A stretch of 64,000 bases of DNA from Aureliella helgolandensis. Lineage in GTDB: Bacteria > Planctomycetota > Planctomycetia > Pirellulales > Pirellulaceae. The stretch is from assembly GCF_007752135.1 (NCBI RefSeq), contig NZ_CP036298.1:496001-560000 (forward strand). Direction: 5' to 3'. Position numbers and translations under genes: made by a program. Positions within the stretch are counted from its first letter, which is position 1. The number at the start of each line of letters is the position of its first letter. This document shows, piece after piece, positions 8,794-37,216 of this stretch. The notes beneath the pieces were generated by a model that made no database searches, was not told where the DNA came from, and saw nothing but the letters and a program-made list of their open reading frames with translations.

Positions 8794-9434
8794 GCAGTGT
8801 CTCCATGCGTCGAGGCCGCGTGGTGCGGGCCTGGAACTCCATATTCAGTTGCTTGAAAAGCGCACCTTGTCAGCAAATCCTCAGAGGAATGCGGTATTGG
8901 CGCGCTGTGGAGACTATAGACATTCTTCCAGAGCGGTCGCAAGACTGTTTCTGTCGTTCGAAGCGGTCGCTGCCCGTTGGGGATCGAGGGCCGTCATGCA
9001 GCGGACCGGTTCGCCTAAGGGTGGAGAATTTGTCATGAAACTAACGATTTTCTGCGACATCGTCTGAACCGCCTGCCGACAATAAACGTCTCAGCGGTTA
9101 TAAACTCAGGCAGTCAATCGGTCTGCCTCGATCGAGCGTGAGGCAGGATGGGGCCGGATTGGGAACAGCCCGGCCGGTGGCCGATGCCGTCTGTTTTCCT
9201 CAAGCGACAAGCTCGCGAACGTGAAAATCGCTCACGGGGGGATTGGCTGCTACCGCTAGACACGACGCCAATCCGCTCACTTGTGGCTGGGGATTTGCCG
9301 ATTTGCCGATTCGGTGGGGCGGACTGATGAATATGGCTACCTTTTGTTGGGGTAGCGCGGTTCCGTACTGGGAGCCGTTAAATCTTAAACACTTGCGAGA
9401 TCTTTTGTACGGATCTCCCCTTCCTTTGCAGGAG
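8794..9434. other. Intergenic region upstream of thrS with two hairpins
   Basis: This divergent region between the GT9 gene and thrS must hold both promoters. Two adjacent stem-loops can be drawn: 9123-9129 with 9140-9146 (CTGCCTC/GAGGCAG), and 9152-9157 with 9170-9175 (GGCCGG/CCGGCC). Neither is followed by a T-run, and the conserved T-box sequence is not visible. The thrS frame is open back to 9243, but that stretch does not look like protein. Confidence 0.4.
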
Positions 9435-11636
9435 ATGCTACCTGTGCTTCAAGTTCAATTGCCTGATGGTTCGATCGTCGAGCACCCCGAGACTGCGACC
9501 GCGCTGGATGTGGCCGAGAAGATTGGTTCGCGTTTGGCGAAAGCAGTCGTGGCGGCCAAGATCGGTGACCGTGTCGTGGACGCCATGCGACCGCTCAAGG
9601 ACATTACCGACGAATCTCCCGTTCCACTCAAACTGCTGACCGAGCGGGATCCTGAGGCGCTCGATGTGCTGCGGCATTCCTCGGCGCACATTATGGCCCG
9701 AGCGGTAATGCGACTCTATGATGGCGTTTCGCTCGCCTTCGGCCCTACCATCAACAATGGCTTCTATTATGATTTCGAGCTGAAGCAGAAGATCAGCGAA
9801 GATGACTTCGAGGCCATCGAGCAAGAGATGGCAAAGATCATTGCAGAGGCTGAGCCGTTTGAGCAGTTTTTGCTCAATCGCGAAGAGGCGGTGAAACTCT
9901 GCGCCGACTTGAAACAGTCGCTCAAAGTCGAGCATATTGAGACCGGACTTGCGGATCACGAGGAACTCGGATTCTACCGCCAGGGTGAGTTCGTCGACCT
10001 GTGCCGTGGCCCGCACATTCCCAATGCGAGCAAGGTCAAAGCGTTCAAGCTGTTGTCGGTCGCCGGCGCGTATTGGAAGGGCGATGCCAAGGGGAAGCAA
10101 CTGCAGCGGTTGTATGGCACGAGCTGGTTCAACCCCAAGGATCAACAGAAGTATCTCGATCAATTGACCGAAGCGCGTCGACGTGATCACCGTGTACTCG
10201 GCAAAAAACTAGGATTGTTTCAAATCAATCCAGAGGTCGGGCAAGGCCTCTGCTTGTGGCTTCCCAAGGGGGCTCGCGTTCGTGTTCTGCTCGAAGATTT
10301 TCTTCGTAACGAATTGCTGCAGCGTGGTTACGATCCCGTGTTCAGTCCCCATATCGGACGCGTCGAACTCTACGAAACCAGCGGACACTTTCCCTACTAC
10401 CGTGACAGCCAGTTTCCTCCGTTGTTCGTCGAGCAAGCAGGCTCGCTGATCGACGCTTGGATCGACCGCCTGCAATCCCCCGAAGGTCTGACGATCGAGG
10501 CGGAACGACAACTCAGCGAGGCGGCTGAAGTGCTGGGGGCTGAACTCCCGAACTACAAGCCCGAATCGGAGGTGGCGGATCGAGTCGCCGTCTTGCAGAC
10601 TTGGCAGCGCGCTCACGAACGCTACCTGATCAAGCCGATGAACTGTCCCCACCATGCTCAGATCTTCAAGGCGCAGCCGCGGTCGTACAAGCAACTACCG
10701 CTGAGGTTCATGGAATTTGGTTCCGTTTATCGCTACGAGCAAACGGGAGAGCTGAATGGCATGCTCCGAGTGCGGGGACTGACGCAAGACGATGCGCACA
10801 TCTTCTGCACTCAAGATCAGGTGGAAGAAGAGTTCCGGAGGACTATTGAGCTGACTCGCTTTGTCCTCGAAAGCGTGGGACTGTCCGACTATCGCGTCCA
10901 GCTGTCGTTGCGCGACCCCAAGAGTGACAAGTATGTGGGGAGTGACGAGAATTGGAACAAGGCCGAGGCGGCGCTCCGCCGGGTGCTGGAAGAGAGTGGG
11001 CTGGAATTCAGCGCCGCCGAAGGGGAAGCTGCGTTTTACGGTCCCAAAGCGGACTTTATGGTTCGGGACTGCATCGGTCGCCAATGGCAGCTCGGTACCG
11101 TACAGCTTGACTATAATCTGCCGGAGCGGTTTAAGCTGGAGTATGTGGGATCGGACAACGGCGTGCATCGACCGGTCATGATCCACCGTGCACCGTTTGG
11201 CTCGTTGGAGCGTTTTGTGGGGATGCTGATCGAGCATTTCGCAGGAGCCTTTCCCATGTGGCTGGCGCCGGAGCAAGTCCGCCTGTGTCCATTGAGCGAG
11301 AAGACCAATGACTACGCACTCGAGTTGGAACGCAAGATGACCGCTGCCGGATTGCGCGTAACTACCGATGTTCGCGGGGCGAAGGTTCAGGCCAAGATTC
11401 GCGACGCGCAGCTTGAATTGATCCCTTACATGGCCGTGGTCGGCCCCAAGGAAGCCGAGGCGGGGGCCATTGCCTTGCGCGATCGCATCGATGGCGATTT
11501 GGGGGCCATGCCGTTCGATGCCGCCTTGGAAAAGTTGCTCGAAGAGGTGCGAAACCGTACGATTCGGCAAGTTGCCAAGCAGGAAGAGCAAACCGAACTG
11601 CCTGAAACTGCCGAAACCGGCGGCCACGAGTATTGA
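9435..11636 (+). CDS. thrS: Threonine--tRNA ligase
   Basis: Cytosolic class II aminoacyl-tRNA synthetase that charges tRNA-Thr. With the ATG at 9435 the protein has 733 residues and opens with the TGS domain (residues about 1-65). The editing domain follows with its HSSAH metal motif. The catalytic core has [24 protein letters not shown] (zinc-binding Cys) and [13 protein letters not shown], and an anticodon-binding domain closes the protein. Family members are usually about 640 residues; the excess is mainly an insertion of about 60 residues between the FPP strand and the KPMNCPHH motif (around 10425-10620). An upstream in-frame start at 9243 would add 64 residues without family resemblance and was rejected. 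dusB begins four bases after the stop. Confidence 0.95.
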
Positions 11637-18109: not shown

Positions 18110-19630
18110 GTGTATAGATCTATAACGAACCGTTTGGCCGTCTGGGCATTGCTCGCAACCTTGCTGGTCAATTTCAATTCCCAGAACGCCAGTGGGCAAG
18201 CTCCTGGTGGTGAACTGCCGCCGGTCGCTGCACAGCTTGATTCGCTGGAGGGGCAATCGGGAGAGGGAGTTGGGAACAGTCCAGGGAGTATTGAGGCGGG
18301 CACGCATCCCGACCTTCTCGAGGCTGAGACGGACGAATATTTAAAGAGCCCCAATTCCGCTCCGCACAACGCCTGGATGCTGGTTTGCTGTGCACTCGTC
18401 TTGTTCATGACGGCACCCGGCTTGGCGATGTTCTACGGCGGCTTGGTTCGCAAGAAAAATGTGCTAAGCGTCCTCATGCAGTGTATTTTCCTGATGGGGA
18501 TGATGAGCGTGGTGTGGGCTCTCTACGGCTATTCGTTAGCGTTTGGTAGCGGCGGGCCCTACATTGGCAATCTCGACTATGCACTCATGCACGGTGTGGC
18601 TCGGCAGTGGAGTGAAACCCTCCATCATCCGGTCACCCCGATGTTTGATGAGGCTCTGCCGCGACTGACCCACATGATGTTTCAAGGGATGTTTTTCATT
18701 ATCACTCCCGCGCTCATCTGCGGTGCATTCGCCGAACGCATGAAGTTTGGAGCGATGGTCTTGTTCTCCCTGGTATGGGGAACCGTTGTCTATTGCCCAC
18801 TGGCACACTGGGTCTGGGGCGGTGGAATTCTGGCCTTCGGAGGGGAGTCCTCGATCGCCGGTGGCGCACTCGATTTCGCGGGCGGCACCGTTGTGCATAT
18901 CAGCTCCGGAGTTACCGCGCTCGTCGCAGCGATCGTGATCGGTCCGAGAATTGGGCATGGACGGGAGCCGATGCCACCACACAATCTGACCTACACCGCC
19001 TTGGGGGCGGCTATGCTGTGGGTGGGGTGGTTTGGCTTTAACGCTGGCAGCGCACTGCGGATCGATGGCATCGCTGCCAGTGCCTTTGCCGTTACCCACT
19101 TCTCAGCCGCCGCCGGAGCGGTTACCTGGGCGTTGATCGAATGGCTTCGCAGTGGAAAACCGACGGTGTTGGGCGCCAGCTCAGGTGCAGTCGCTGGCCT
19201 AGTGTGCATTACACCAGCTGCTGGGCATGTGGGACCGATGGCCTCCCTGATTATGGGAGCACTCGGCGGCGTGGTTTGCTACCTCTCCTGTTCCAAGCTC
19301 AAGTCGAAATTCCGCTACGATGATTCGCTCGATGCATTCGGTATCCACGGCATGGGCGGTGCACTGGGCGCTGTTTTGACCGGAGTGTTTGCGACGCGAG
19401 CGGTATTGGATATCTCTGGCGGAGAGCCGGTGGGCATGATCGAGGGCAATTACAGTACAATCCTTGGACAGTTGGCTGCAACGGGGATTACGATTGCCTA
19501 TGCTGCGATTGTGAGTTTTGGACTCTTGAAGTTGCTTGATTTGACGATCGGTCTGCGAGTTTCCGCGACATCCGAACGCCAAGGCCTCGATATTACCGAG
19601 CATGGGGAAGAGGGGCACATCTTCCTGTAA
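18110..19630 (+). CDS. amt: Ammonium transporter (Amt family) with cleavable presequence
   Basis: A 506-residue Amt/Rh-family channel that admits ammonium across the inner membrane. The eleven-helix core begins at about residue 85 (APHNAWMLVCCALVLFMTAP) and contains family marks such as MFYGGLVRKKNVL, the FAGGTVVHISSG segment, and the late FGIHGMGGALGAVLTGVF helix with the pore His region. Ahead of the core lie a signal-peptide-like hydrophobic segment (about 8-25, followed by ASGQA) and a 50-residue polar spacer. Some Amt proteins have a signal peptide, but the spacer is long. The GTG at 18110 was chosen because it gives the complete presequence. No glnB/glnK gene is next to it, although many bacteria pair the two. 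Confidence 0.92.
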   Translation: MYRSITNRLAVWALLATLLVNFNSQNASGQAPGGELPPVAAQLDSLEGQSGEGVGNSPGSIEAGTHPDLLEAETDEYLKSPNSAPHNAWMLVCCALVLFMTAPGLAMFYGGLVRKKNVLSVLMQCIFLMGMMSVVWALYGYSLAFGSGGPYIGNLDYALMHGVARQWSETLHHPVTPMFDEALPRLTHMMFQGMFFIITPALICGAFAERMKFGAMVLFSLVWGTVVYCPLAHWVWGGGILAFGGESSIAGGALDFAGGTVVHISSGVTALVAAIVIGPRIGHGREPMPPHNLTYTALGAAMLWVGWFGFNAGSALRIDGIAASAFAVTHFSAAAGAVTWALIEWLRSGKPTVLGASSGAVAGLVCITPAAGHVGPMASLIMGALGGVVCYLSCSKLKSKFRYDDSLDAFGIHGMGGALGAVLTGVFATRAVLDISGGEPVGMIEGNYSTILGQLAATGITIAYAAIVSFGLLKLLDLTIGLRVSATSERQGLDITEHGEEGHIFL

Positions 19631-24562: not shown

Positions 24563-25765
24563 ATGAAACTCGGAATACTCTCGTGCAGCCCTAATTGCTA
24601 TAGCACGCGTCGCTTGCGTGAGGCGGCAGAGCAGCGAAATCACTCCGTTAAAGTCCTCAATTCCCTGAAGTTTGCAATTGATTTGGAGGAGGGGTCGCCG
24701 GATCTCTTTTACAATCAGAAACATCTGTCGGATTATGATGCGGTACTGCCGCGCATCGGAGCTTCGATCACCTATTTCGGTACTGCTGTTGTGCGGCAGT
24801 TTGAGCAGATGGATGTTTTTTGTGCCAACACATCGGGAGGGATTTCCAACTCCCGCGACAAGCTGCGTTCCTTGCAAATTTTGAGTCGTCACTACATTGG
24901 TATTCCGAAGACGACGTTTGTGCGAGATAAGAAGGATGTTTTGCCCGCGATCGAACGCGTGGGGGGAGCGCCGGTCATCATCAAGTTGATCGAAGGAACT
25001 CAGGGGATTGGCGTCCTTCTGGCGGAGTCGACCAAATCTGCGGAGGCAATCATCGAGCTCTTGCAGAGTCAGAAGCAAAATGTATTGGTGCAGAAGTTTG
25101 TGGCAGAGAGTAAGGGGAAGGATATCCGAGCCTTTGTGGTCGGGGATCAGGTCGTGGGTGCGATGAGACGCGTGGCGCAGGGGCAGGAGTTCCGTAGCAA
25201 TGTTCACCGTGGCGGAGTTACGGAACAAGTGGACCTTGATGAACGCTACAAGGAGACGGCGGTCCGTTCAGCCCAGATTATGGGGCTGCGAATTGCCGGG
25301 GTGGATATGCTGGAGAGCAAGGATGGGCCACAGGTGATGGAGGTGAATTCCTCGCCAGGGTTGGAGGGGATCGAGACCTGCACTCAGCTCGATATTGCCG
25401 GAGCAATCGTGGACTACATCGGAGCCCAGGTTGATTTTCCGGAAATCGATGTGCGGCAGCGTTTGACTGTCAGCCGAGGTTACGGCGTAGCCGAGATCCA
25501 CCTCCCCGAAGGTTCGAGCTACTTGGGGCAAACCGTTGCCGCCTCAGGGCTGAGAGACAACGACGTCAATGTGTTGACGCTCTATCGCGGAACTTCGGTG
25601 ATTCCCAACCCTCGTTCCGATCGAATTTTAGAGGCGGGGGATCGCCTCCTGTGCTTCGGGAAATTGGAGTCGATGAAGGGCTTGATTCCCAAGAAGACCC
25701 GCAAGCGTCGTTCGATGAAGGTGCAGCCACTGCAGGAGTCGGATGTGGCGCATATTGAGTCTTAG
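24563..25765 (+). CDS. RimK-like ATP-grasp amino-acid ligase fused to an RCK_C (TrkA-C) domain
   Basis: Residues 1 to about 290 form a RimK-type ATP-grasp ligase. The pre-ATP-grasp domain starts MKLGILSC; NSRDKLRSLQIL, VIIKLIEGTQGIGV and VLVQKFV mark the ATP site; and MEVNSSPGLEGIE (259-271) carries metal-binding Glu and Asn. RimK adds glutamates to the C-terminus of ribosomal protein S6, and relatives make other peptide bonds; the substrate here is unknown. Residues about 301-370 match an RCK_C domain (VAEIHLPEGSSYLGQTV, then VLTLYRG and DRILEAGDRLLCFGK), a ligand-binding module usual in potassium channels and antiporters. The fusion suggests allosteric control. The gene precedes an AstE-like hydrolase by about 50 bases, so they are probably cotranscribed. 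Confidence 0.88.
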   Translation: MKLGILSCSPNCYSTRRLREAAEQRNHSVKVLNSLKFAIDLEEGSPDLFYNQKHLSDYDAVLPRIGASITYFGTAVVRQFEQMDVFCANTSGGISNSRDKLRSLQILSRHYIGIPKTTFVRDKKDVLPAIERVGGAPVIIKLIEGTQGIGVLLAESTKSAEAIIELLQSQKQNVLVQKFVAESKGKDIRAFVVGDQVVGAMRRVAQGQEFRSNVHRGGVTEQVDLDERYKETAVRSAQIMGLRIAGVDMLESKDGPQVMEVNSSPGLEGIETCTQLDIAGAIVDYIGAQVDFPEIDVRQRLTVSRGYGVAEIHLPEGSSYLGQTVAASGLRDNDVNVLTLYRGTSVIPNPRSDRILEAGDRLLCFGKLESMKGLIPKKTRKRRSMKVQPLQESDVAHIES

Positions 25766-25815
25766 GCCTTGGTTGTGTTCCGCTGCTATCGTTTGTCGAG
25801 AAGGGTTTCGTCCGC

Positions 25816-26937
25816 ATGCCTAGAGCATCCAGGTTTGGCAAGAAGAAAAGTATTGCAACATGGGACGAAGGGGATATCGCTCCTGGCGAAACCCGGAATT
25901 TCCGATTAACGGTTAGTGAGAGCTACAGCGGGATGAATGTCCGCATTCCGATTCAGGTGCGGCGGGCTAAGCGAGAGGGGCCGACGGTTTTTGTGACTGC
26001 GGCCTTGCATGGCGATGAAATCAATGGCACTGGGGTCATCCGACAAATGATTCATGATGGTGCTTTGGATCTCAAGTGTGGCGGCTTGATCCTAGTGCCC
26101 GTCTTGAACCTGCTCGCCTTCGATCGCCATTCACGCTATCTGCCGGACCGCCGCGATCTGAATCGGTGCTTTCCTGGCTCTCTGGGCGGAAGCTTGGCGA
26201 GTCGTATGGCGCGGCGGATTTTCGACGAGATCGTGATGCGCAGTGACTATGGGATCGATTTGCATACCGCTGCGGTGCGGCGCACCAATTACCCCAACAT
26301 TCGAGCTGACATGGGGAATGCAGAAGTGGCTCGCATTGCGCATGCTTTTGGGAGTGAATTGGTGTTGAACGGCAAAGGACCCAAGGGCTCCTTTCGCAGG
26401 GAGGCAACCTCCATCGGTTGCCCCACCATCGTCATGGAGGGCGGAGAGGTGTGGAAGGTAGAGCCTCGCATTGTGGAGTCTGCAATGAAAGGGGTTACCA
26501 ATGTTCTCCGGGAGTTGGGGATGCTGGAAGGGGAAACCGAGATTCCACCTCAGCAAACGGTTTTGGAGAAGACGGTGTGGTTGAGGGCAGAGCGAGGTGG
26601 GTTTCTGCAATTTCATGTTGCCCCAGGGGAGGTTGTGGTGCGAGAGCAAGCCATTGCCACCAATACGAATCTGTTGGGGGTGGAACGCAGCGTTCTCTAC
26701 GCCCCCTTTGATGGAGTGGTGATCGGCATGACAACCTTGCCAGCCGTAACTCCAGGCGAACCCGTATGTCACTTGGGGCGTTTGCCGCGTGGAACGAAAG
26801 CGGCGCAACTCAGTCAGGATCGGTCGGAAGATGAGGGGTTGGAGGAACGCCTCTTTGAAGAGCTCTCGACAAATTTTATGGTCGTTGAGCGATCCGATGA
26901 AACAGAGGGTATGGGCGAAACGGGTGATTCGGAGTAG
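25816..26937 (+). CDS. Succinylglutamate desuccinylase/aspartoacylase (AstE/AspA) family zinc hydrolase
   Basis: A 373-residue M14-like zinc hydrolase. The zinc site is ALHGDEING with His65 and Glu68, plus His150 in GIDLHTAA; RRDLNRCFPG (112-121) provides the substrate-carboxylate Arg region, and IVMEGGEVW the catalytic Glu region. The C-terminal part (about 250-345) is a beta-barrel domain with LRAERGGFLQF and YAPFDGVVIG, and the last 30 residues are acidic. Family members cleave an amide bond next to an acidic amino acid. Next to a RimK-like ligase this looks like the matching remover of added residues, which is inference. A 455-base gap separates it from the ATP-grasp genes that follow. 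Confidence 0.85.
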   Translation: MPRASRFGKKKSIATWDEGDIAPGETRNFRLTVSESYSGMNVRIPIQVRRAKREGPTVFVTAALHGDEINGTGVIRQMIHDGALDLKCGGLILVPVLNLLAFDRHSRYLPDRRDLNRCFPGSLGGSLASRMARRIFDEIVMRSDYGIDLHTAAVRRTNYPNIRADMGNAEVARIAHAFGSELVLNGKGPKGSFRREATSIGCPTIVMEGGEVWKVEPRIVESAMKGVTNVLRELGMLEGETEIPPQQTVLEKTVWLRAERGGFLQFHVAPGEVVVREQAIATNTNLLGVERSVLYAPFDGVVIGMTTLPAVTPGEPVCHLGRLPRGTKAAQLSQDRSEDEGLEERLFEELSTNFMVVERSDETEGMGETGDSE

Positions 26938-27392
26938 CCGGGCTGCCCCTGTCGAGGCGGGGTGTGGGGATCTGTCCGCCCCACAGTGCTCGCCGTCTGG
27001 ACGCTTACCGTCGATTGGGGGGATCTTGCCGCCTTGACCCCATTGTAAGTCGTCGCATGGGGCGGGCTGGAGTGCCTGACACTCGCTCACTGGATTGTTC
27101 ACTGAGGGCCGACCCCCTAGTCGTGCAAAGAGCGGAAGTCGTAGCTTGCTCATGCGTCGAATTGCGTTTTGGGTTTGGAGCGGAAGGCGTACCCACATCG
27201 ACAAGTCGCACGTGCCTGGTCATGGAGCGTGTAAGTTACGTGAAATGTGTGCTCCGAACACCGCAGGACACCTTTAAAATTAAGCCCACTTTGCCTATAG
27301 TGCTGGTAGGGCGGACAGAACGTGTTCAATTTATCAAGCTATGGCTGCGGAAGATTTCTGCGGACTGTCGTTTCTTTTCTGTATGGACGCCC
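26938..27392. other. Intergenic region between the AstE-like gene and the ATP-grasp cluster
   Basis: 455 bases. A 7-bp stem with a 9-base loop can form at 26963-26985 (TGTGGGG/CCCCACA), shortly after the AstE-like stop, but no T-run follows. The frame of the downstream gene stays open through this region without resembling its family, so it is probably untranslated and likely holds the cluster's promoter. Confidence 0.4.
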
Positions 27393-28877
27393 ATGACGAA
27401 TCATCATCACTTCGGCGAGTATCAAACCGAGAATTTCTTTGATGAGATGCTGGACGCCAACGGTGTACCGCGGCAGGGTGCTGAGCCACTGTTGAAGTGC
27501 ATCAACGAGCTTCCGCCCGGGGAATTGGTGACGCGGCAGCAGTCGATCGAACGCGCTCTGATGCGGATGGGAATCACGTTTACGGTTTATGGCGACGAGG
27601 CTGGAACCGAAAAGATTTTTCCATTCGATGTTATTCCGCGCATCGTGCAGGCCTTCGAATGGCGGCATATTGAAGCTGGGCTGAAGCAACGCATTGAAGC
27701 CCTCAATCGCTTCATTGACGACATCTACCACGACCAAGCAATTGTCAAAGACGGGATTCTCCCACGGCACACGCTGGAGAAAGCCAAGTCGTTTCGGAAG
27801 CAATGCATCGGGCTCAAGCCTCCCAAGGGGGTCTGGTGCCATATTACTGGTACCGATTTGGTGCGGCACAGCGATGGCGCGATCTACGTGCTCGAAGACA
27901 ATTTGCGCTGTCCGTCCGGCGTATCGTATGTGCTGCAAAATCGGCTGGTTATGAAACGCAGTTTCCCGCAGATGTTCGCCGATTCGAACGTGCGGCCGGT
28001 GATCAATTATCCTGCGCAGTTGTTTAAGACGTTGTCGAGTATTAGTCCGGACGGAAATCCGGAACCGACGGTGGTTGTGCTAACCCCGGGAATCTTTAAC
28101 TCGGCTTACTACGAGCACTCGTTCCTAGCGCAGCAGATGGGTGTTGAGCTGGTGCAGGGGGAGGACTTGGTAGTTGAGAATGACATCGTCTATATGCTCA
28201 CGACCGACGGGCTTGAGAAAGTAGACGTTATCTACCGACGCATCGACGATGATTTCCTGGACCCCAAGCACTTCCGCAAAGATTCGATGCTTGGTGTGCC
28301 TGGTTTGTTGGACGCCTATCGTCAAGGCAATGTGGCCTTGGCTAATGCGCCAGGAACGGGAGTTGCCGACGACAAAGTCATCTACGCCTATGTGCCGGAG
28401 ATGATCCATTACTACATGGGAGAAGAGCCGGTACTGCCCAATGTGCCGACCTATATTTGTGAGCGGGATGACGATCGCAAGTATGTGCTGGAACATTTGG
28501 ATGAATTGGTTGTTAAGGCGGCCAATGAAGCGGGGGGGTATGGAATGTTAATCGGCACGCAGTCGACTTTGGAGCAACGGCAAGAGTTTGCCAAACGCAT
28601 CGAAGACGATCCCCGCAATTATATTGCCCAGCCCACCTTGGCGTTGTCGCGGGTTCCCACGAACGTTGGCGATCATTTTGAAGGGCGACATGTCGACCTT
28701 CGGCCGTATGTGCTGTATGGCGGGGATTCGGTGTGGGTCCTGCCGGGCGGCTTAACCCGCGTGGCCCTTAAGAAGGGATCGCTCGTCGTGAACTCTTCGC
28801 AAGGTGGTGGAAGTAAGGATACTTGGGTAATCGCAGATCAAGAGCTCGATGCGACTGATTTGAAAGTTACGCTCTAG
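27393..28877 (+). CDS. Circularly permuted ATP-grasp type 2 protein (DUF404/DUF407-like)
   Basis: A 494-residue cytosolic protein of the circularly permuted ATP-grasp family, predicted to activate a carboxylate with ATP and join it to an amine. Family sequence includes YQTENFFDEML near the start, RRQ-like TRQQSIERALMRMGITFTVYGD, GVWCHITGTDLVRHSDGAIYVLEDNLRCPSGVSY (ATP site, here named by its ends), VDVIYRRIDDDFLDP, and ELVVKAANEAGGYGMLIG. The Met at 27393 gives the usual N-terminus; a longer frame back to 26964 lacks family sequence. The alpha-E gene follows 86 bases later. Such pairs recur with transglutaminases in many bacteria, but their product has not been defined, as far as I know. Confidence 0.88.
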   Translation: MTNHHHFGEYQTENFFDEMLDANGVPRQGAEPLLKCINELPPGELVTRQQSIERALMRMGITFTVYGDEAGTEKIFPFDVIPRIVQAFEWRHIEAGLKQRIEALNRFIDDIYHDQAIVKDGILPRHTLEKAKSFRKQCIGLKPPKGVWCHITGTDLVRHSDGAIYVLEDNLRCPSGVSYVLQNRLVMKRSFPQMFADSNVRPVINYPAQLFKTLSSISPDGNPEPTVVVLTPGIFNSAYYEHSFLAQQMGVELVQGEDLVVENDIVYMLTTDGLEKVDVIYRRIDDDFLDPKHFRKDSMLGVPGLLDAYRQGNVALANAPGTGVADDKVIYAYVPEMIHYYMGEEPVLPNVPTYICERDDDRKYVLEHLDELVVKAANEAGGYGMLIGTQSTLEQRQEFAKRIEDDPRNYIAQPTLALSRVPTNVGDHFEGRHVDLRPYVLYGGDSVWVLPGGLTRVALKKGSLVVNSSQGGGSKDTWVIADQELDATDLKVTL

Positions 28878-28963
28878 TGCATTCCGTTGAAAAATAGCAC
28901 ATTTGCTGAATTTCAGCTTCGTTCGCAATATTAATCTACGTAGGTACAGCTTAGGAACTCAGA

Positions 28964-29962
28964 ATGCTAAGTCGAGTTGCAAATTCCATCTATTGGATGA
29001 CGAGGTATATCGAGCGAGCGGAAAACCTGGCGCGTTTTATCGACGTTTCGTCCAATGTGATTCTCGACCAGCCCGAAGCGGCTGCCAAACAGTGGGAGCC
29101 ACTGGTCAGGACCACTTCGGATGAAAAGTACTTCCGCGAGCACTATGGCGAGTTTACGGCGAGCAATGTACGTAATTTCTTGACGTTTGACCGTGAGTAT
29201 TCGAATTCAATTCTTAGTTCCTTGAGTCAAGCTCGTGAGAATGCGCGGACCGTTCGCGAAGCGATCTCATCGGAAGCTTGGGAGGTTCTCAACGAAAATT
29301 ACCTGGCGGTCAAGCATGCGGCCCTGCAAGGCGCTGCAGCGGCAAATTCCGATTTCTACACTGAGGTTAAACGGCAGAGTCACTTGTTTAACGGCGTCTT
29401 TGACAGCACCATGTCCCGCGACAAGGGATGGTACTTTGCGAACATCGGTCGCTTCCTTGAGCGGGCAGACAAGACGAGCCGCATATTGGACGTTAAATAT
29501 TTCACACTCCTCCCCTCCTTTGATGATGTCGATACCACGCTCGATGATCTACTTTGGTCGGCCGTACTGCGCTCGGTCAGCGGGTTTGAAATGTACCGCA
29601 AACGCTATCACTCGTTGACCATTAATCGTGTGGTCGAATTCCTCGTGTTGGATACGAAATTTCCTCGCTCAATTCACTACTGTGTGCGAACTGCGATCGG
29701 TTCTTTAAATCGCGTAGGAGGGCCTGAAGACAATATTGCCCTCAAGCAGGCGGCGGCCATCGAGGCAAAGTTGTGCAATGTTACCGCTAAGGAAGTTATC
29801 AACGGCGGCTTGCATGAATTCATCGATGGGATTCAGAAGGAATTGAATCGTCTGGGGGAAGCCATTCATGAAACCTATTTCGCGCGACGCGATGAACTGC
29901 ACGCAACACCGGTCAAGCTCCTGTCGGCAACGCAGTCGCAATCTCAGAGTCTGACCAACTAG
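28964..29962 (+). CDS. Alpha-E domain protein (DUF403)
   Basis: A 332-residue helical protein. The N-terminal signature MLSRVANSIYWMTRYIERAENLARFID is typical of the alpha-E family, which is named for a conserved Glu-rich helical repeat (ERAEN here, LERADK at about residue 167, and later arginine/glutamate pairs). Biochemical function is not established. It nearly always accompanies circularly permuted ATP-grasp proteins, either as a neighbour or fused. Here it is a stand-alone partner of the gene just upstream, while a fused version lies at 33715-36315. The start is fixed by the first-residue signature. Confidence 0.88.
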   Translation: MLSRVANSIYWMTRYIERAENLARFIDVSSNVILDQPEAAAKQWEPLVRTTSDEKYFREHYGEFTASNVRNFLTFDREYSNSILSSLSQARENARTVREAISSEAWEVLNENYLAVKHAALQGAAAANSDFYTEVKRQSHLFNGVFDSTMSRDKGWYFANIGRFLERADKTSRILDVKYFTLLPSFDDVDTTLDDLLWSAVLRSVSGFEMYRKRYHSLTINRVVEFLVLDTKFPRSIHYCVRTAIGSLNRVGGPEDNIALKQAAAIEAKLCNVTAKEVINGGLHEFIDGIQKELNRLGEAIHETYFARRDELHATPVKLLSATQSQSQSLTN

Positions 29963-30253
29963 CTTGCAGCTTGGGGCACGAATGGCTTGTCGGTTGAGTG
30001 GCCGATCTGTTGAGTTGCTTGAGGGGGGCAGATGGGCTGGCGAAGTGCGAGCATTTTGGCCTTGTCCAGGACGTCGTCTAGGATAAAGGCGATCCGCAAC
30101 CCGTGTGTGGCAGCGTAGAGGGTGAAGTGGTCTGAGGCTGCGATGGCAGCAGCGCCGATGAACTTCACCGAAGTTTGGGATGATGAATGCAAGGCGGGGG
30201 AATTTCGCCCGTCTCTTTTCCTTTTTTGAAGACAACGCCAGTTAGGCTCCAAC

Positions 30254-33200
30254 ATGACGATTCGTGTCGCGCTCAATCATCGTACTACCTATCACTACGA
30301 TCGCCCCACAACGATTCATCCGCAATTGATTCGCCTCCGCCCTGCCCCGCATACGCGGACTCCGGTGCAGAGTTATTCCTTGCGTGTCACGCCTGGCGAG
30401 CACTTTACGAACTGGCAGCAAGATCCACACGGCAATTTTCAAGCCCGTTGTGTTTTCCCAGAGCCGGCGCACGGTTTGGAGATTGAAGTAGATTTGATCG
30501 TGGACATGACGGTCATCAATCCCTTTGATTTCTTTATCGAAGACGCCGCCAAAGAGTTCCCCTTTGTCTATGAAGAATGGTTGGGACGCGAGCTCAAGCC
30601 GTTCCTGGAGGTGTTGCCAGAAACCCCCAATTTTGAAAAGTACCTAGCGCAGGTGCAGCGGGAAATCAAAGCTCGTGGCCCGCAAAATACGGCCGACTTT
30701 CTAGTGGGATTGAATCAAAAAGTTCAATCCGATATCAGCTATACCATTCGGATGGAGCCAGGGGTTCAGACTCCCGAGCAGACGTTGACGCTCCTCAGTG
30801 GCTCCTGCCGCGATTCGAGCTGGTTGCTGGTGCAAGTATTGCGCAGACTGGGCTTAGCCTCGCGGTTTGTCTCCGGATATTTAATTCAACTTGCCCCTGA
30901 TTTGAAACCCCTGGACGGTCCCGAAGGCCCGACAGCCGATTTCACGGATTTGCATGCCTGGGTCGAAGTTTACTTGCCGGGAGCCGGTTGGGTGGGACTG
31001 GACCCCACGAGCGGCTTGCTGGCTGGCGAAGGACATATTCCTCTTGCCTGCACTCCTGACCCGATGACCGCCGCACCAATTTCAGGATCGATTGGCGAAT
31101 GCGAGGTTGAGTTCGATCATGCGATGTCCGTGACGCGCATCCATGAGGATCCGAGGGTAACGAAGCCTTACACGCCTCAGCAGTGGTCGGTGATCGATGC
31201 GCTAGGTCAGCGCGTGGATGAGCAATTGGCGGCGCAGGATGTACGGCTGACGATGGGAGGGGAACCCACCTTCGTTTCCATTGACAACATGGATGGACCC
31301 GAGTGGAATTCCGAGGCGGTAGGGCTTGAGAAGCGGCAGCTCTCGGAGACTTTGATCAAACGATTGCGAGAGCGTTTTGGCCAAGGTGGATTGCTGAGTT
31401 ACGGTCAGGGCAAATGGTATCCTGGAGAATCGCTTCCACGATGGGCATTAGCCTGCTTTTGGCGCAAGGATGGAGTGGCGATTTGGGAGGATCCCGATCT
31501 GATTGCAGACACTTCGGTCGATCAGGGGTTAACCCACGAGGATGCGGGAGTTTTTGCACACGCCTTGGCTGTCACACTGGGTGTCTCGCGTAAGTACATT
31601 CGCCCTGCCTTTGAGGACATTGCTCACTTTTTGGTGAAAGAGCAGCGTTTGCCGGTCAATGTCGATCCGAGCAATCCTCAGTTGGGCAGTCCGGAAGATC
31701 GCGCCCGCTTGGTACGCGTTTTCGAGCAGGGGCTGGGGACGCCAGTTGGATTTGTGCTACCGCTGCGGAGGCAGTGGTGGCAAGCGCAACCACGTTGGAC
31801 GAGCGGCCCTTGGCCGGTGCGAGGGGAGAGTCTTTTTTTGTTGCCTGGCGATTCACCCGTAGGTCTTCGCCTACCACTCGATTCGCTCCCCTACTCCGCT
31901 ACTGGTCCTGCAGAGCCGCTGATTCCCATCGATCCGACCGCACCGGTTCATGAGCTTCCGCAGCCACTGTATTCACGTCAGCAAAATGCGCAGCAGCGAT
32001 CCGACGAATCGTCTGCCAACAACGCTGGTCTACAGATTGAGAGATTGGCCAATGAAGAGAAGACCGAGCGCGGCATCACGGCGAAGCCGCTCAAGGATCC
32101 GCGAGAGTTCAAATTGGGCAACTCGAAATTGAGTGAGGCTGCGGCTAAACTCAAGCTTGAAGAAATCGACGCCGAGTCGGAATCTGTGGCTGCTGATCAA
32201 GTGGTTCCCACGGCCCTGTGTGTCGAGGCGCGCAGCGGTAACTTGCATATCTTTATGCCGCCTACGGAGCGGATCGAAGACTACCTAGACTTGGTGGCCG
32301 CCGTGGAAGCGACGGCGCGGCAATTGAAGGCGCCGGTCGTAGTGGAAGGCTATCCCCCACCTCACGATTCGCGTATCGAAGTCTTGAAAGTCACACCCGA
32401 TCCAGGAGTCATCGAGGTGAACACCCACCCAGCCTCCAATTGGAACGAGCTGGTGGCCATCACCCGTGAACTGCACGCTGAAGCTCGACTGACGCGTTTG
32501 GGGACGGAGAAATTTGACCTGGATGGTCAGCATACGGGAACGGGAGGAGGAAATCACATTGTGTTGGGGGCAGCCCATCCCACGGACAGCCCTTTCTTGC
32601 GGCGTCCCGATTTGCTCAAGAGTTTTATTTCGTATTGGGTAAATCACCCGTCGCTGTCGTACCTGTTTAGCGGGAAATTTATCGGGCCAACGAGTCAGGC
32701 CCCGCGGGTTGATGAGGGACGTCGCGATTCGATGTACGAGCTCGAATTGGCTTGCAGTTTGGTGCCACCTCGTGGGCAGGATTGCCCGCCCTGGTTGGTG
32801 GATCGCTTGTTCCGCAATCTGTTGACCGATTTGACGGGCAACACGCATCGAGCTGAATTTTGCATCGACAAACTCTACTCACCAGATAGCAGTACGGGGC
32901 GGCTCGGCCTGCTCGAGTTCCGTGGTTTTGAAATGCCCCCTCACTATGAGATGAGCCTAACGCAGCAGTTGTTGATTCGCTCGATGGTCTCTGCGTTTTG
33001 GGATACACCCTACGAGGAACCGCTGATTGAGTGGGGAACGACGTTGCATGATCGTTTCATGCTTCCCCATTTTGTGTGGGATGATTTCGGCTATGTCATT
33101 CAAGATCTGAATCGGCGAGGATTCCCAATTCAGAAGGAATGGTTTGCGCCACATTTTGAATTCCGATTTCCGGTCATTGGTGAATTTGCGGTGGATCAGA

Positions 33201-33718
33201 TGCAGGTGGAATTGCGCGACGCAATTGAGCCTTGGTATGTTTTGGGTGAGGAACCGACCGGGGGAGGGACGGCCCGCTATGTCGATTCCTCGGTGGAGCG
33301 TTTGCAGGTCAAAGTGCGTGGGCTGACACACCGCCGGCATGTGTTGAGCTGCAACGGACGGCGTTTACCGCTGCATCCCACCGGCAATGCAGGTGAGTAT
33401 GCGTGCGGGGTTCGCTACCGAGCTTGGCAGCCGCCAAGTTGCCTACATCCGACCATCCCCGTCCATACCCCGCTCACGATCGATATCATCGATACTGAGG
33501 CTCGGCACTCGTTGGGAGGGTGTCGATACCACGTAGCCCATCCAGCCGGACGCAACTACGAGACATTTCCCGTAAATGCGAACGAAGCGGAGGCGCGGCG
33601 AGGTGCGCGGTTCTTTAAAATGGGACACACGCCGGGAACCATTGAGGTGCCGGCAAAGGAGACCAATTCTTCTTTCCCACTGACCCTCGACCTGCGGCGG
33701 ATGCCGAAGCCCGAATGA
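30254..33718 (+). CDS. Large transglutaminase-like protein with DUF2126 domain
   Basis: A 1,154-residue protein. Residues about 1-290 are a bacterial transglutaminase-like module with an N-terminal beta domain (RVALNHRTTYHYDRP) and a papain-like triad: Cys185 in SGSCRDSSW, His234 in TDLHAWVEVY and Asp250 in VGLDPTSG. The remaining 800 residues match DUF2126, including LTMGGEPTFVSIDNMDGPEWN at about 330, VIEVNTHPASNWNEL, TGTGGGNHIVLG and LTGNTHRAEFCIDKLYSPD. Parts of this resemble an amidoligase or ATP-dependent carboxylate-amine ligase fold, but the activity is unproven. No signal peptide is seen. Its stop overlaps the start of the next gene by four bases (ATGA at 33715-33718), so translation is probably coupled. 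Confidence 0.88.
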   Translation: MTIRVALNHRTTYHYDRPTTIHPQLIRLRPAPHTRTPVQSYSLRVTPGEHFTNWQQDPHGNFQARCVFPEPAHGLEIEVDLIVDMTVINPFDFFIEDAAKEFPFVYEEWLGRELKPFLEVLPETPNFEKYLAQVQREIKARGPQNTADFLVGLNQKVQSDISYTIRMEPGVQTPEQTLTLLSGSCRDSSWLLVQVLRRLGLASRFVSGYLIQLAPDLKPLDGPEGPTADFTDLHAWVEVYLPGAGWVGLDPTSGLLAGEGHIPLACTPDPMTAAPISGSIGECEVEFDHAMSVTRIHEDPRVTKPYTPQQWSVIDALGQRVDEQLAAQDVRLTMGGEPTFVSIDNMDGPEWNSEAVGLEKRQLSETLIKRLRERFGQGGLLSYGQGKWYPGESLPRWALACFWRKDGVAIWEDPDLIADTSVDQGLTHEDAGVFAHALAVTLGVSRKYIRPAFEDIAHFLVKEQRLPVNVDPSNPQLGSPEDRARLVRVFEQGLGTPVGFVLPLRRQWWQAQPRWTSGPWPVRGESLFLLPGDSPVGLRLPLDSLPYSATGPAEPLIPIDPTAPVHELPQPLYSRQQNAQQRSDESSANNAGLQIERLANEEKTERGITAKPLKDPREFKLGNSKLSEAAAKLKLEEIDAESESVAADQVVPTALCVEARSGNLHIFMPPTERIEDYLDLVAAVEATARQLKAPVVVEGYPPPHDSRIEVLKVTPDPGVIEVNTHPASNWNELVAITRELHAEARLTRLGTEKFDLDGQHTGTGGGNHIVLGAAHPTDSPFLRRPDLLKSFISYWVNHPSLSYLFSGKFIGPTSQAPRVDEGRRDSMYELELACSLVPPRGQDCPPWLVDRLFRNLLTDLTGNTHRAEFCIDKLYSPDSSTGRLGLLEFRGFEMPPHYEMSLTQQLLIRSMVSAFWDTPYEEPLIEWGTTLHDRFMLPHFVWDDFGYVIQDLNRRGFPIQKEWFAPHFEFRFPVIGEFAVDQMQVELRDAIEPWYVLGEEPTGGGTARYVDSSVERLQVKVRGLTHRRHVLSCNGRRLPLHPTGNAGEYACGVRYRAWQPPSCLHPTIPVHTPLTIDIIDTEARHSLGGCRYHVAHPAGRNYETFPVNANEAEARRGARFFKMGHTPGTIEVPAKETNSSFPLTLDLRRMPKPE

Positions 33719-36315
33719 ATAGACTGAGTAAGGCGGATGCTCAGGTAAAAGTGGTTCCGCTTCCACAAGATGGAAGTGGGGGAGATCTACTTTTACTTGA
33801 AAAGCAGCTATCGAATTATCGTGGATTGAATGGCACCTACGATGAGGCGGTTACCAAAGATGGAACGCTGCGCGATGGTTGGCCGAAATTATTCGAAAAT
33901 CTGGGGACGCTCTCCGTTCGGGAGCTAGAGCGGCGGATTGCGCAGGCACAGCGGCAGATTGACGCCGAAGGTGTCGTCTTCAATCCGCATGATGATGCGA
34001 GCGAGATCTCGCGACCTTGGAAACTGGATCCAGTGCCACTGGTCATCCCGGAAGCCGAGTGGAATGGAGTCGCGGAGGGGTTGGCACAGCGCGCCCAGTT
34101 GATCGACTTGATCATCCTGGACTTTCTCGGGCCTCAAACTCTGCTGCGTGAGAAAGTTGTTCCCCCGGAGTTGCTATTTGCCAACCCGCAGTACTTTCCT
34201 GCGTATCATGGTTTGGTGAATCGGCCCATTCAGCACGTCCAATTGTATGCGGCCGATCTGGCCCGAGATCCTTCGGGGCAATGGTGGGTGACTGCGGATC
34301 GAGCTCGGTCCCCATCCGGGCTGGGATATGTTCTCGAGAACCGTCTGATCGCTTCTCGCATGTTGCCCGTGGCGTTTTCCAATGGCAATGTCCATCGCCT
34401 GGCTTCCTTTTTCATGACCTTTCAGCGTGCGCTGCGCGACTTGGCCAAGCGTTATCGCGACAATCCCAGGATTGCCATTTGGTCGCGTGGCACGAAGAGT
34501 AAGTCGTATTTCGAAGATGCGTTTCTAGCTCGCTATCTGGGGTACACGCTGGTTGAGAGCGACGATTTAGCGGTTCGCAACAACCGAGTCATGCTCAAAA
34601 CGCTGGGCGCTTTGTTGCCCGTGGAAGTTCTGCTGCGGCGGTTAGACGATCATCGATGCGATCCTTCGGAGTTGACCAGCGGTAGTGACGGAATATCGGG
34701 GTTGCTGGAGGTGATCCGCAGCGGCAACGTGGCGGTCGCGAACTCACTCGGTAGCAGCTACGCTGAAGCTCCCATGTTGGCTGCGTTCTTACCCGCCATC
34801 TGTCGGCATCTGATAGGACAGGACTTAAAAATTCCGTCGGTGGCTACGTGGTGGTGTGGACAGCCCCACGGCTTGAAGTATGTCCAGGAAAACTTGGAGC
34901 GAGTCGTCATTCGCTCCGCCTTTCGAGATCGAGATGAAGCACCGTTAGTTCCAGCCATGATGACGGCAGAGCAGCGCGAGGAGCTGTCGGCGAAGATTGC
35001 AGCAACGCCCCAGCTGTTTGTTGGGCAAGAACGCATCACCCGGTCCACGACTCCGGTGTGGGATGCTGGGCAACTGAAGCCCTGGTCCGTGGCGCTGCGG
35101 GCGTTTATGGTTGCCAAGGACGATGGGTATTATCCTCTGCCTGGGGCTTTGGCACGCGTGTCTCCCGATGCCGATGCGCTCCTGCAGGACATGACCAGCG
35201 GAGAGAAGAGCCAAGATGTCTGGATCGTCGCTCGTGAGAGCGTACCAATCGTTTCGCTGTTGAGCGTCGATGGTCAGCAAGCCGAACTCAAACGCGGTGG
35301 CTCGGAGCTGCCTAGCCGCGTGGCGGACAATCTATTTTGGTTTGGACGGAATCTCGAAAGAGCTGAGAAAATTGCCAGGATTCTGCGTATCACGCTGCAG
35401 CAAGCAACTGGAGAGGATGCGACCAGCAGTGGCCTGTCCCGATTGCCTGAGGTGTGTTCGCTCGTTAAACAGTTGGACGGAGACGGGGCTGTCGAGGGAA
35501 TCTCGGTCAAGGATTTAATACAACGGATTGTGCGAGGCGCAATGGATCTCAAGAACCCTGCATCGCTACGCAATGTGGTGAATCTGGCGCATGGTTCGGC
35601 CTCCAAGGTGCGTGATCGAATTGCCATCGATAGCTATCGCATCGTTACGGAATTGAAAGAGCAATTCGAAACGCAAATCGCTGCTGACGAGGACGGCCCC
35701 TACGAATTGTTGTGGTTGTTGGACAACGCCGTGCAAGCCTTGAGTGCGATTAGCGGATTGGCCAGTGAGAGCATGACCCGTACGTTGGGGTGGAGGTTTT
35801 TTGACCTAGGACGGCGAATCGAACGTGGTGCGCAAACGGTCAAGATCCTAACCACGCTATTACCGCTGCAGCCGCAGGGATTGACTCCGGCCCTGGAAGC
35901 GAGTCTTAAGATCTGCGACAGCTACATGACCTATCGTGGTCGTTACCTGGCGCATGTTGATCTGGCAGCTGTGCTTGATCTATTAGTCGTGGATGATAGC
36001 AATCCTCGTTCGCTGGCGTATCAGCTGCGGGCGATCAGCGAGCACATCGATGCCTTGCCACGGTCGGAGACTCAGGCTGGAATATCGGTCGAGCAGCGAT
36101 TGGCGCTATCGACCTACAATTCCGTCCGTTTGTGCAACGTTTACGAGGTTTCCGTGCCAGACAATCGGGGAGAGCTATCGGCCTTGCACAAGGTATTGTC
36201 TTTGACGGCAACCCGGCTCCCCAAGCTGGCTGACGAGGTTTCCAACAAGTTCTTGATTCATGCAGGCTTACAGCGACACTACAGTCGTGGTTTGGGAGCG
36301 GATGGAAATGGATAA
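33715..36315 (+). CDS. Circularly permuted ATP-grasp / alpha-E fusion protein
   Basis: An 866-residue fusion. Residues about 60-500 are a circularly permuted ATP-grasp domain (PWKLDPVPLVIPEAEW, QWWVTADRARSPSGLGYVLENR, EVLLRRLDDHRCDP, VVIRSAFRDRDE). From about 528 an alpha-E domain begins (LPSRVADNLFWFGRNLERAEKIARILR, named by its ends) and runs to about 855. The combination mirrors the two separate genes at 27393-29962. ATP-site residues look less regular than in the stand-alone protein, for example VVIRSAF where the other has LVVKAAN, so the substrate or the activity may differ. It overlaps the upstream DUF2126 gene by four bases and the downstream transglutaminase gene by fourteen, indicating a tightly coupled operon. 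Confidence 0.88.
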   Translation: MNRLSKADAQVKVVPLPQDGSGGDLLLLEKQLSNYRGLNGTYDEAVTKDGTLRDGWPKLFENLGTLSVRELERRIAQAQRQIDAEGVVFNPHDDASEISRPWKLDPVPLVIPEAEWNGVAEGLAQRAQLIDLIILDFLGPQTLLREKVVPPELLFANPQYFPAYHGLVNRPIQHVQLYAADLARDPSGQWWVTADRARSPSGLGYVLENRLIASRMLPVAFSNGNVHRLASFFMTFQRALRDLAKRYRDNPRIAIWSRGTKSKSYFEDAFLARYLGYTLVESDDLAVRNNRVMLKTLGALLPVEVLLRRLDDHRCDPSELTSGSDGISGLLEVIRSGNVAVANSLGSSYAEAPMLAAFLPAICRHLIGQDLKIPSVATWWCGQPHGLKYVQENLERVVIRSAFRDRDEAPLVPAMMTAEQREELSAKIAATPQLFVGQERITRSTTPVWDAGQLKPWSVALRAFMVAKDDGYYPLPGALARVSPDADALLQDMTSGEKSQDVWIVARESVPIVSLLSVDGQQAELKRGGSELPSRVADNLFWFGRNLERAEKIARILRITLQQATGEDATSSGLSRLPEVCSLVKQLDGDGAVEGISVKDLIQRIVRGAMDLKNPASLRNVVNLAHGSASKVRDRIAIDSYRIVTELKEQFETQIAADEDGPYELLWLLDNAVQALSAISGLASESMTRTLGWRFFDLGRRIERGAQTVKILTTLLPLQPQGLTPALEASLKICDSYMTYRGRYLAHVDLAAVLDLLVVDDSNPRSLAYQLRAISEHIDALPRSETQAGISVEQRLALSTYNSVRLCNVYEVSVPDNRGELSALHKVLSLTATRLPKLADEVSNKFLIHAGLQRHYSRGLGADGNG

Positions 36316-37216
36316 GCAAACCGCGGCAGAGACAGCCACCTATCGCGTAAATCACATCACGACTTACAACTACGATACGCCGGTTAGGGTCTCGCACAAT
36401 CTAGTAATGTTAGTCCCACGCGTGGAGTTTGGAGTCGACGTTTCACCTAGCTATAAGTTGACGGTGAAGCCGGTGCCGCTGAGCATTACCCGACGTGAGG
36501 ACTACTTTGGCAATCAGCTGCATGCATTCTCGTTGGAGGAAAATCATCGGCAGTTGGTGGTGACTGCCAGTGGGCAAGTCAAAGTCACACCTGCTCGAAT
36601 TTCGGTGAGCGATCCATCTCCTAGCTGGGAGAGCGTCGTTCAAGGGGTGCGTGAGCAAACCGATCCTCGCTGGATGGATGTCTGTCAGTTTCAATTTCCA
36701 TCAACCCGAATCTTCCTAGAGGAGGCGTATGCCGAATACGCGCGGCAGTGTTTCGTACCGCAGCGTCCCATTCTGGAAGCCGGGTTGGAGCTAACGCAAC
36801 GCATCTACCAAGACTTCGAATACGATTCCAAAGCCACGCACGTGTACACGCCCACACTGGAGGCTTTCGGTATTCGGCGAGGGGTATGTCAAGACTTTGC
36901 GCATGTCCAAATCGCTTGTTTGCGTTCCCTAGGCTTGAGCGCGCGGTATGTCAGCGGCTATCTGAGAACTCATCCGGTACCAGGAAAAGAGCGACTTGTG
37001 GGAGCCGATCAATCTCATGCTTGGGTTTCACTGTATTGTGGTACCGAGCATGGTTGGGTCGATTTGGATCCGACGAACAATCGCATCTGTGATTGCGACC
37101 ATGTCCCCGTGGCGCGTGGTCGCGACTACGATGATGTCGTGCCTGTGCGTGGAGTTTTCCTAGGGGGAGGAAGGCATCGGATTGACGTTTCGGTAGATGT
37201 CTGTCCCGTCGAATAA
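36302..37216 (+). CDS. Transglutaminase-like protein (short form)
   Basis: A 304-residue protein with an N-terminal beta domain (YRVNHITTYNYDTPVRVSHN, residues 14-33) and a transglutaminase core with Cys196 in RRGVCQDFAHV, His239 in DQSHAWVSLY and Asp256 in VDLDPTNN. This is the common family found beside circularly permuted ATP-grasp and alpha-E genes. It is thought to be a thiol protease or amidase of papain fold rather than a cross-linking enzyme, but that is inference. The start at 36302 overlaps the upstream gene by 14 bases and is preceded by GGGAG; an ATG at 36308 is equally possible. It lacks the DUF2126 region of the other transglutaminase in the cluster. Confidence 0.87.
   Translation: MEMDKQTAAETATYRVNHITTYNYDTPVRVSHNLVMLVPRVEFGVDVSPSYKLTVKPVPLSITRREDYFGNQLHAFSLEENHRQLVVTASGQVKVTPARISVSDPSPSWESVVQGVREQTDPRWMDVCQFQFPSTRIFLEEAYAEYARQCFVPQRPILEAGLELTQRIYQDFEYDSKATHVYTPTLEAFGIRRGVCQDFAHVQIACLRSLGLSARYVSGYLRTHPVPGKERLVGADQSHAWVSLYCGTEHGWVDLDPTNNRICDCDHVPVARGRDYDDVVPVRGVFLGGGRHRIDVSVDVCPVE

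Follow-up and report, generated by a model that had tools for sequence, protein, structure and literature searches.

Do seven neighbouring genes that seem to make and trim amide bonds form one pathway, or do two separate modules stand side by side? The question is raised by a locus in Aureliella helgolandensis, from which we analysed a stretch of 64,000 nucleotides (hereafter the window; positions 496001–560000 of the single contig of 8.44 Mb that is the source genome). Seven + strand open reading frames (ORFs) at 24563–37216 of the window encode a RimK-type ligase (g1), an AstE/aspartoacylase-like hydrolase (g2), a circularly permuted ATP-grasp protein (g3), an Alpha-E protein (g4), a transglutaminase-DUF2126 protein (g5), an ATP-grasp/Alpha-E fusion (g6) and a second transglutaminase-like protein (g7). 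The ORF list and the Pfam domain calls, all above curated cut-offs, confirmed the shared orientation and the domains named for the seven genes in the initial annotation, which had further proposed that g1 and g2 enlarge the pathway of the other five. In our analysis, the island likely consists of two separate modules of known kinds, a Rim pair (g1-g2, module A) and an amidoligase/transglutaminase set (g3-g7, module B or the core). This reading splits an apparent pathway into two testable units and keeps a neighbourhood from being mistaken for a pathway. Gene order, module boundaries, and the conservation and loss of residues were observed directly.

The separation is seen in the genomic placement of the two modules. 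Thirty-two genomes carry DUF2126 as well as RimK and AstE genes next to each other, and the pair is within 30 kb of DUF2126 in the window's genome alone; many of the 32 are drafts with the pair and DUF2126 on different contigs, where linkage can be hidden. The proposal of a core pathway enlarged by the pair was not supported. In the eight single-contig genomes besides the window's, the distance from the pair to DUF2126 ranged from 93.6 kb (G180) to more than 3 Mb, and for nine other genomes with an adjacent pair the list used contained no DUF2126 row. The congener G155 has the window's upstream genes u2 and u1 immediately before g3, with its RimB, RimK and AstE genes on another contig. Because u1 is joined directly to g3 there, we infer that the pair entered or left this spot after the lines of the two genomes parted.

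The core set recurs as a unit. The order g3-g4-g5-g6-g7 on one strand was found in 15 of the 21 core loci of relatives that were counted (g7 is cut by a contig end in one of the 15), which fits the earlier view that these genes form a set of a known kind, predicted to make peptides or modify proteins. The remaining six loci included two without a visible g7, two that were rearranged (L047 and L052) and two that were split (L033 and L044). We retrieved core loci from 22 of the 34 DUF2126-bearing relatives, and a partial one (L029, from G153) was left out of the count. In eight unfetched relatives (G184, G188, G195, G196, G198, G200, G201 and G203), a free alpha-E gene and DUF2126 were on separate contigs or far apart, so the arrangement of the five genes seems more typical of the window's family than of the order at large. 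DUF2126 was present in 17 of 149 genomes from across the phylum and, counting the window's genome, in 135 of 346 genomes of the order and 35 of 60 closer relatives. No flanking gene of the core was conserved in more than 3 of the 25 stretches compared. A Caballeronia plasmid (L073) carries g3-g7 in the same order with an opposite-strand zinc metallopeptidase gene (8814–9875) between g4 and g5, and g3, g4, the metallopeptidase gene (8809–9870) and g5 were seen in the incomplete gene table of a second Caballeronia plasmid (L074).

The boundaries of the core genes were refined by homology. The longest ORF of g3 starts at GTG 26964; homology of the relatives to this ORF begins at residue 142–159, with L027 (114) and L050 (136) as exceptions, and a Met is aligned to its Met144 in four relatives' loci (L031, L033, L035 and L051). 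For these reasons the start is most likely ATG 27393 instead of GTG 26964, giving g3 the coordinates 27393–28877 (494 aa; CP_ATPgrasp, PF14403/PF04174; solved relative 3n6x) and therefore a g2-g3 spacing of 455 bases (26938–27392, + strand), not 26. This gap contains a promoter-like match at 27273–27301; such matches occur in the region at chance level (6 found versus 6.6 expected), and terminator-like matches (20 versus 13.8 expected, standard deviation 3.3) are uninformative. Downstream are g4 (28964–29962; PF04168) and, after 291 bases, g5 (30254–33718; 1154 aa), which overlaps g6 (33715–36315; 866 aa; PF14403, PF04174 and PF04168) by 4 bases. For g7 (36260–37216), homology begins mostly at residue 19–28 (at 7 and 12–16 in four loci), so ATG 36302 or 36308 is the likelier start. 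The last three genes do overlap as the initial annotation had described, with the correction that the g6/g7 overlap, 56 bases between the longest ORFs, is likely 14 or 8 bases with these starts.

The Rim pair has its own pattern of recurrence. The 400-aa product of g1 (24563–25765) is a RimK-type alpha-L-glutamate ligase (RimK_N PF18030 and RimK PF08443) with a C-terminal RCK_C domain (TrkA_C, PF02080), and that of g2 (25816–26937; 373 aa), the partner of g1 in relatives, is an AstE/aspartoacylase-like zinc hydrolase (AstE_AspA_cat, PF24827; 127 bits with a cut-off of 25). Matches to the solved RimK structures 7qyr and 4iwx were obtained for g1 by phmmer, and it belongs to the RimK family by the NCBIfam model rimK_fam TIGR00768 (260.3 bits, cut-off 143.4), scoring narrowly under the S6-ligase equivalog NF007764 (322.6 bits versus a cut-off of 331). 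In the NCBIfam search, g2 was below the equivalog cut-offs for AstE, aspartoacylase and DoeB. Its HGDE, DLNRCFPG and DLHT motifs, which we take to be the zinc-ligand motifs of AstE/aspartoacylase, were found among 17 sequences as HGDE in 16, [DN][LI]NR.FPG in all 17 and D[LM]HT in 13. RimK and AstE genes are at most 1 kb apart in 41 of the 70 genomes with both, and in 40 of these 41 they lie on one strand with RimK first. The earlier suggestion of a likely maker and trimmer pair is upheld. A gene with the RimB-type domain PF05618 was present in all 40 genomes that we chose among those bearing RimK, and in 30 of them it lies no more than 2 kb from RimK; in the window's genome it stands at 2914295, a distance of 2.39 Mb from RimK. 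As for the label RimB, NF052261 was the best match of the L055 gene, at 131 bits with a cut-off of 200.

The pair extends well beyond the order. Of 391 named RimK loci, the best 80 (L075–L154, some on the same contigs as the G genomes) encode RimK proteins with RCK_C that are 77–84% identical to g1; in the 66 of these 80 whose flanks reach 1.5 kb or more in both directions, AstE was found in 48, RimB in 45, both in 37 and neither in 10. The titles of the 80, mostly metagenome-assembled genomes, name Planctomycetota, Desulfobacterota, Gammaproteobacteria, Gemmatimonadetes and others, and such identity to g1 across these phyla suggests horizontal spread of RimK with RCK_C. On three Vibrio or Salinivibrio plasmids, rimK, AstE-family and PF05618 genes adjoin one another (Pfam confirmed each of the PF05618 genes and two of the three AstE-family genes), and no core gene was listed in the 10.9 kb viewed. 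Two haloarchaeal plasmids were also viewed: that of Halolamina encodes RimK and PF05618 in one protein (L071 3567–4889, − strand), divergent from an adjoining AstE-family gene, and the other carries AstE without rimK. The RimB-RimK-AstE trio in Planctomycetota, other bacteria and, with RimK and RimB fused beside AstE, one haloarchaeon suggests that Rim systems may include an additional trimming enzyme. The ribosomal protein S6 of the window's genome ends in GNEEAN, that is in EEAN and not in Glu, and the Rim substrate may well be a protein or peptide other than S6.

Within the core, the two circularly permuted ATP-grasp proteins differ in the residues that they keep. We aligned homologues without stops, requiring more than 440 aligned residues and at least 55% identity for g3, and more than 780 and at least 30% for g6; G155 and G161 entered the g3 set twice (L026 and L031; L024 and L035). 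Fifty-one polar positions were conserved in at least 27 of 28 g3 sequences, their conservation in g3 being by construction, as they were picked for it. Thirteen of the 51 were kept in none of the 21 g6 sequences, including E311, N313, K471 and D578 (numbered from GTG 26964), and K518 was kept in 5 of 21; one Caballeronia g6 among the 21, which also include the window's own, shows the same loss. E311-x-N313 of g3 resembles the metal-binding E-x-N of ATP-grasp enzymes. Since residues conserved in g3 are lost, the ATP-grasp half of g6 is probably a pseudo-ligase, retaining the fold without the ligase activity, and g6 is still under constraint, with 50 invariant columns. The conserved ATP-grasp residues are thus present in g3 and in part lost from g6, which leaves the membership of the core in the ATP-grasp/alpha-E/transglutaminase systems unaffected. 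The initial annotation had treated a lack of ATP-binding residues in the ATP-grasp proteins as decisive against its pathway, and such a lack was found in one of the three, g6. Its description of the island as only peptide-bond-type enzymes was too strong: the ATP-grasp half of g6 lacks these key residues, and alpha-E is called a protein of unknown function in PMC6376114. With the ATP-grasp half of g6 degenerate in 21 of 21 sequences, any amide ligation within g5-g6-g7 should be the work of DUF2126 or of a partner, for instance g3.

The transglutaminase domains, on the other hand, keep their catalytic residues. In g5 (Bact_transglu_N PF08379, Transglut_core PF01841 and the putative amidoligase DUF2126, PF09899), Cys185, His234 and Asp250 were invariant in 22 of 22 aligned sequences; in a wider set of 45 rows, which may be partial or missing the domain, the corresponding motifs were seen 37, 37 and 35 times. 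In g7 (PF08379 and PF01841), the Cys and HAW motifs were conserved in 20 of 20 sequences and the W..D motif in 17 of 20. No Pfam domain other than transglutaminase and DUF2126 was called in g5 and g7. Five fold matches of the g5 model were obtained by Foldseek at E ≤ 0.001, all of them transglutaminase-like, and glutamine synthetases and GmaS were weakly matched (E 0.05–0.14), mixed with transglutaminases and a few other folds among the 50 matches listed; these weak matches would agree with the amidoligase label that Pfam gives DUF2126, short of proof. The g4 model is all-helical, with a predicted local distance difference test (pLDDT) score of 85 and no PDB fold match at E ≤ 0.001.

A possible mechanism can be outlined for each module, in which we infer every reaction step, the order of the steps and the roles of RCK_C, AstE, alpha-E and g6. 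In module A, RimK would add glutamates to a C-terminal carboxylate in an ATP-driven reaction, giving free poly-alpha-glutamate or a protein tail; its RCK_C domain would probably gate the activity via a small ligand, and the RimB protease, encoded far away, together with the AstE-like zinc hydrolase, would trim the product. According to PMC11957791, RimB removes glutamates and stimulates RimK in Pseudomonas. In module B, g3 and the DUF2126 part of g5, perhaps glutamine-synthetase-like, would use ATP to activate a carboxylate for amide-bond formation, the Alpha-E protein g4 and the dead ATP-grasp/alpha-E fusion g6 would serve as a scaffold or substrate carrier, and the Cys-His-Asp transglutaminase domains of g5 (N-terminus) and g7 would cut the product or transfer it to protein. 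The only published step relevant to module B is the release of phosphate from ATP by the ATP-grasp protein of an Anbu operon (PMC6376114). These reaction details are tentative, and we doubt that they are right as drawn. A bolder combination appears unlikely, in which the dead ATP-grasp/alpha-E, retained in Planctomycetota and a betaproteobacterium, would present substrates to a glutamine-synthetase-fold ligase and the transglutaminases, and a three-part RimB-RimK-AstE glutamate-tail cycle with an RCK_C sensor would have spread between phyla, sometimes being drawn near the core as acidic peptides feed it.

Two modules rather than one remains our preferred reading, and several findings weigh against it. 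The seven genes share a strand, and a single pathway, in which RimK and AstE would provide or shorten an acidic peptide for ligation and transfer by the core, would account for the co-occurrence of RimK with DUF2126: over the order, DUF2126 was present in 61 of 77 genomes with RimK versus 74 of 269 without (p = 4e-16), a comparison run without a control gene, in which phylogeny and perhaps genome size are confounders; by genus the counts were 28 of 34 versus 35 of 99 (p = 2e-6). Among relatives' genomes of at least 6 Mb, they were 16 of 18 versus 14 of 24 (p = 0.04). RimK or AstE is also more loosely linked to the core, within 15 kb, in G175 (where a second RimK has RimB as a neighbour and no AstE), G153 (AstE beside g5 and RimK 12 kb away) and G438 (AstE 14.7 kb from the core). 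These make four gene-level linkages within 15 kb versus a chance expectation of 0.54 (P ~0.002, or 0.018 for three), where two of the four come from G153, the 15 kb limit was chosen after the data were seen, and the chance estimate takes genomes to be 7 Mb long and disregards contig breaks. The count draws jointly on the 60 closer relatives and on 346 genomes from the order, takes DUF2126 from among the matches listed, and leaves out split, partial or weak DUF2126 rows and AstE rows weaker than 1e-45. None of the best 80 of 391 RimK loci had a core gene in flanks of up to 5 kb (49 have at least 4.9 kb on both sides), yet this count is blind past 5 kb, and in G153 DUF2126 is 12 kb from RimK. 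On the same side stand the moderate confidence of the g5 model (pLDDT 68) and the 23 of 51 g3 polar positions that g6 keeps in at least 18 of 21 sequences, so that its fold is kept.

Co-occurrence and loose linkage raise the single pathway slightly, and we still consider it very unlikely. The adjacent pair stands together with DUF2126 only in the window's genome among the 32, at least 93 kb separate them in the eight other single-contig genomes, the g2-g3 gap is 455 bases wide and G155 joins u1 directly to g3. The co-occurrence is also weaker in the 60 closer relatives (16 of 22 versus 19 of 38, p = 0.11) and in genus plus family (13 of 17 versus 9 of 20, p = 0.09), and is absent within the genus alone (7 of 11 versus 4 of 4). 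The initial annotation had staked its pathway on the pair not being unlinked from the other five genes in all relatives; the relatives come close to such unlinking, since none of the other genomes among the 32, many of them drafts, has its adjacent pair near DUF2126, but taken literally it is broken by G175, G153 and G438. Two other explanations concern the core only. It may make a free small peptide or storage metabolite with no protein modified, which is a real possibility although we lean against it: the core holds two plausible amide-forming enzymes, and an ammonium transporter gene (PF00909; window 18110–19630) upstream of the island, with a homologue upstream of the core in G155 (L031 17902–19329), gives a faint hint at nitrogen metabolism, but the transporter link rests on that single congener and simple ligation does not need two transglutaminase domains with intact triads. 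It is highly improbable that the core instead tags proteins for degradation by the proteasome-like Anbu. The partners in Anbu operons are ATP-grasp, alpha-E and transglutaminase proteins (PMC5666114 and PMC6376114), and weaker matches to PF00227 (proteasome-fold, perhaps Anbu) were found within 2 kb of a free alpha-E gene in G187:C76, G190:C2 and G200:C13; however, the single PF00227 match in the window's genome, at 4536252, is 4 Mb from the core and has the same match length as in most relatives, and we take it as HslV. With no Anbu gene seen in the window's genome, we do not assign the locus to Anbu-type operons.

Comparison with known systems places both modules among familiar kinds. Neighbourhoods of amidoligase, alpha-E and transglutaminase genes were reportedly described by Iyer et al. 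in 2009. Those of ATP-grasp, alpha-E and transglutaminase genes are known from PMC5666114, PMC6376114 and PMC3597751; g3-g7 resemble them in bringing circularly permuted ATP-grasp, alpha-E and transglutaminase-like proteins together, and belong to such systems with all three gene types, but differ in that no Anbu was found in the window's genome. The Pseudomonas Rim system, as presented in PMC11957791 and PMC10092738, likewise has a RimK, and a RimB-type gene is near RimK in most of the relatives searched; the window's genome differs in the RCK_C tail, the AstE partner, the unlinked RimB-type gene and the end of S6. The words aspartoacylase and desuccinylase are absent from the main text of these two papers. 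ATP-grasp, retropepsin and transglutaminase-like parts also recur in the Pseudomonas Rlo operon, which combines a membrane-bound inactive transglutaminase with a secreted protease (PMC12239564), whereas the transglutaminase triads are intact here. Two features are of modest interest, the trio of RimB, RimK and AstE and the degenerate ATP-grasp half of g6; neither appeared among the results listed by literature searches, from which we claim no absence from print.

A few observations lie outside these modules. None of the seven proteins had any PADLOC match, and anti-phage defence was accordingly set aside. A 1133-residue ORF on the − strand of the window (52913–56314) had no Pfam or NCBIfam match. 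Finally, contig G175:C12 carries two more full or near-full DUF2126 matches in tandem, along with a fragmentary match at a separate position.

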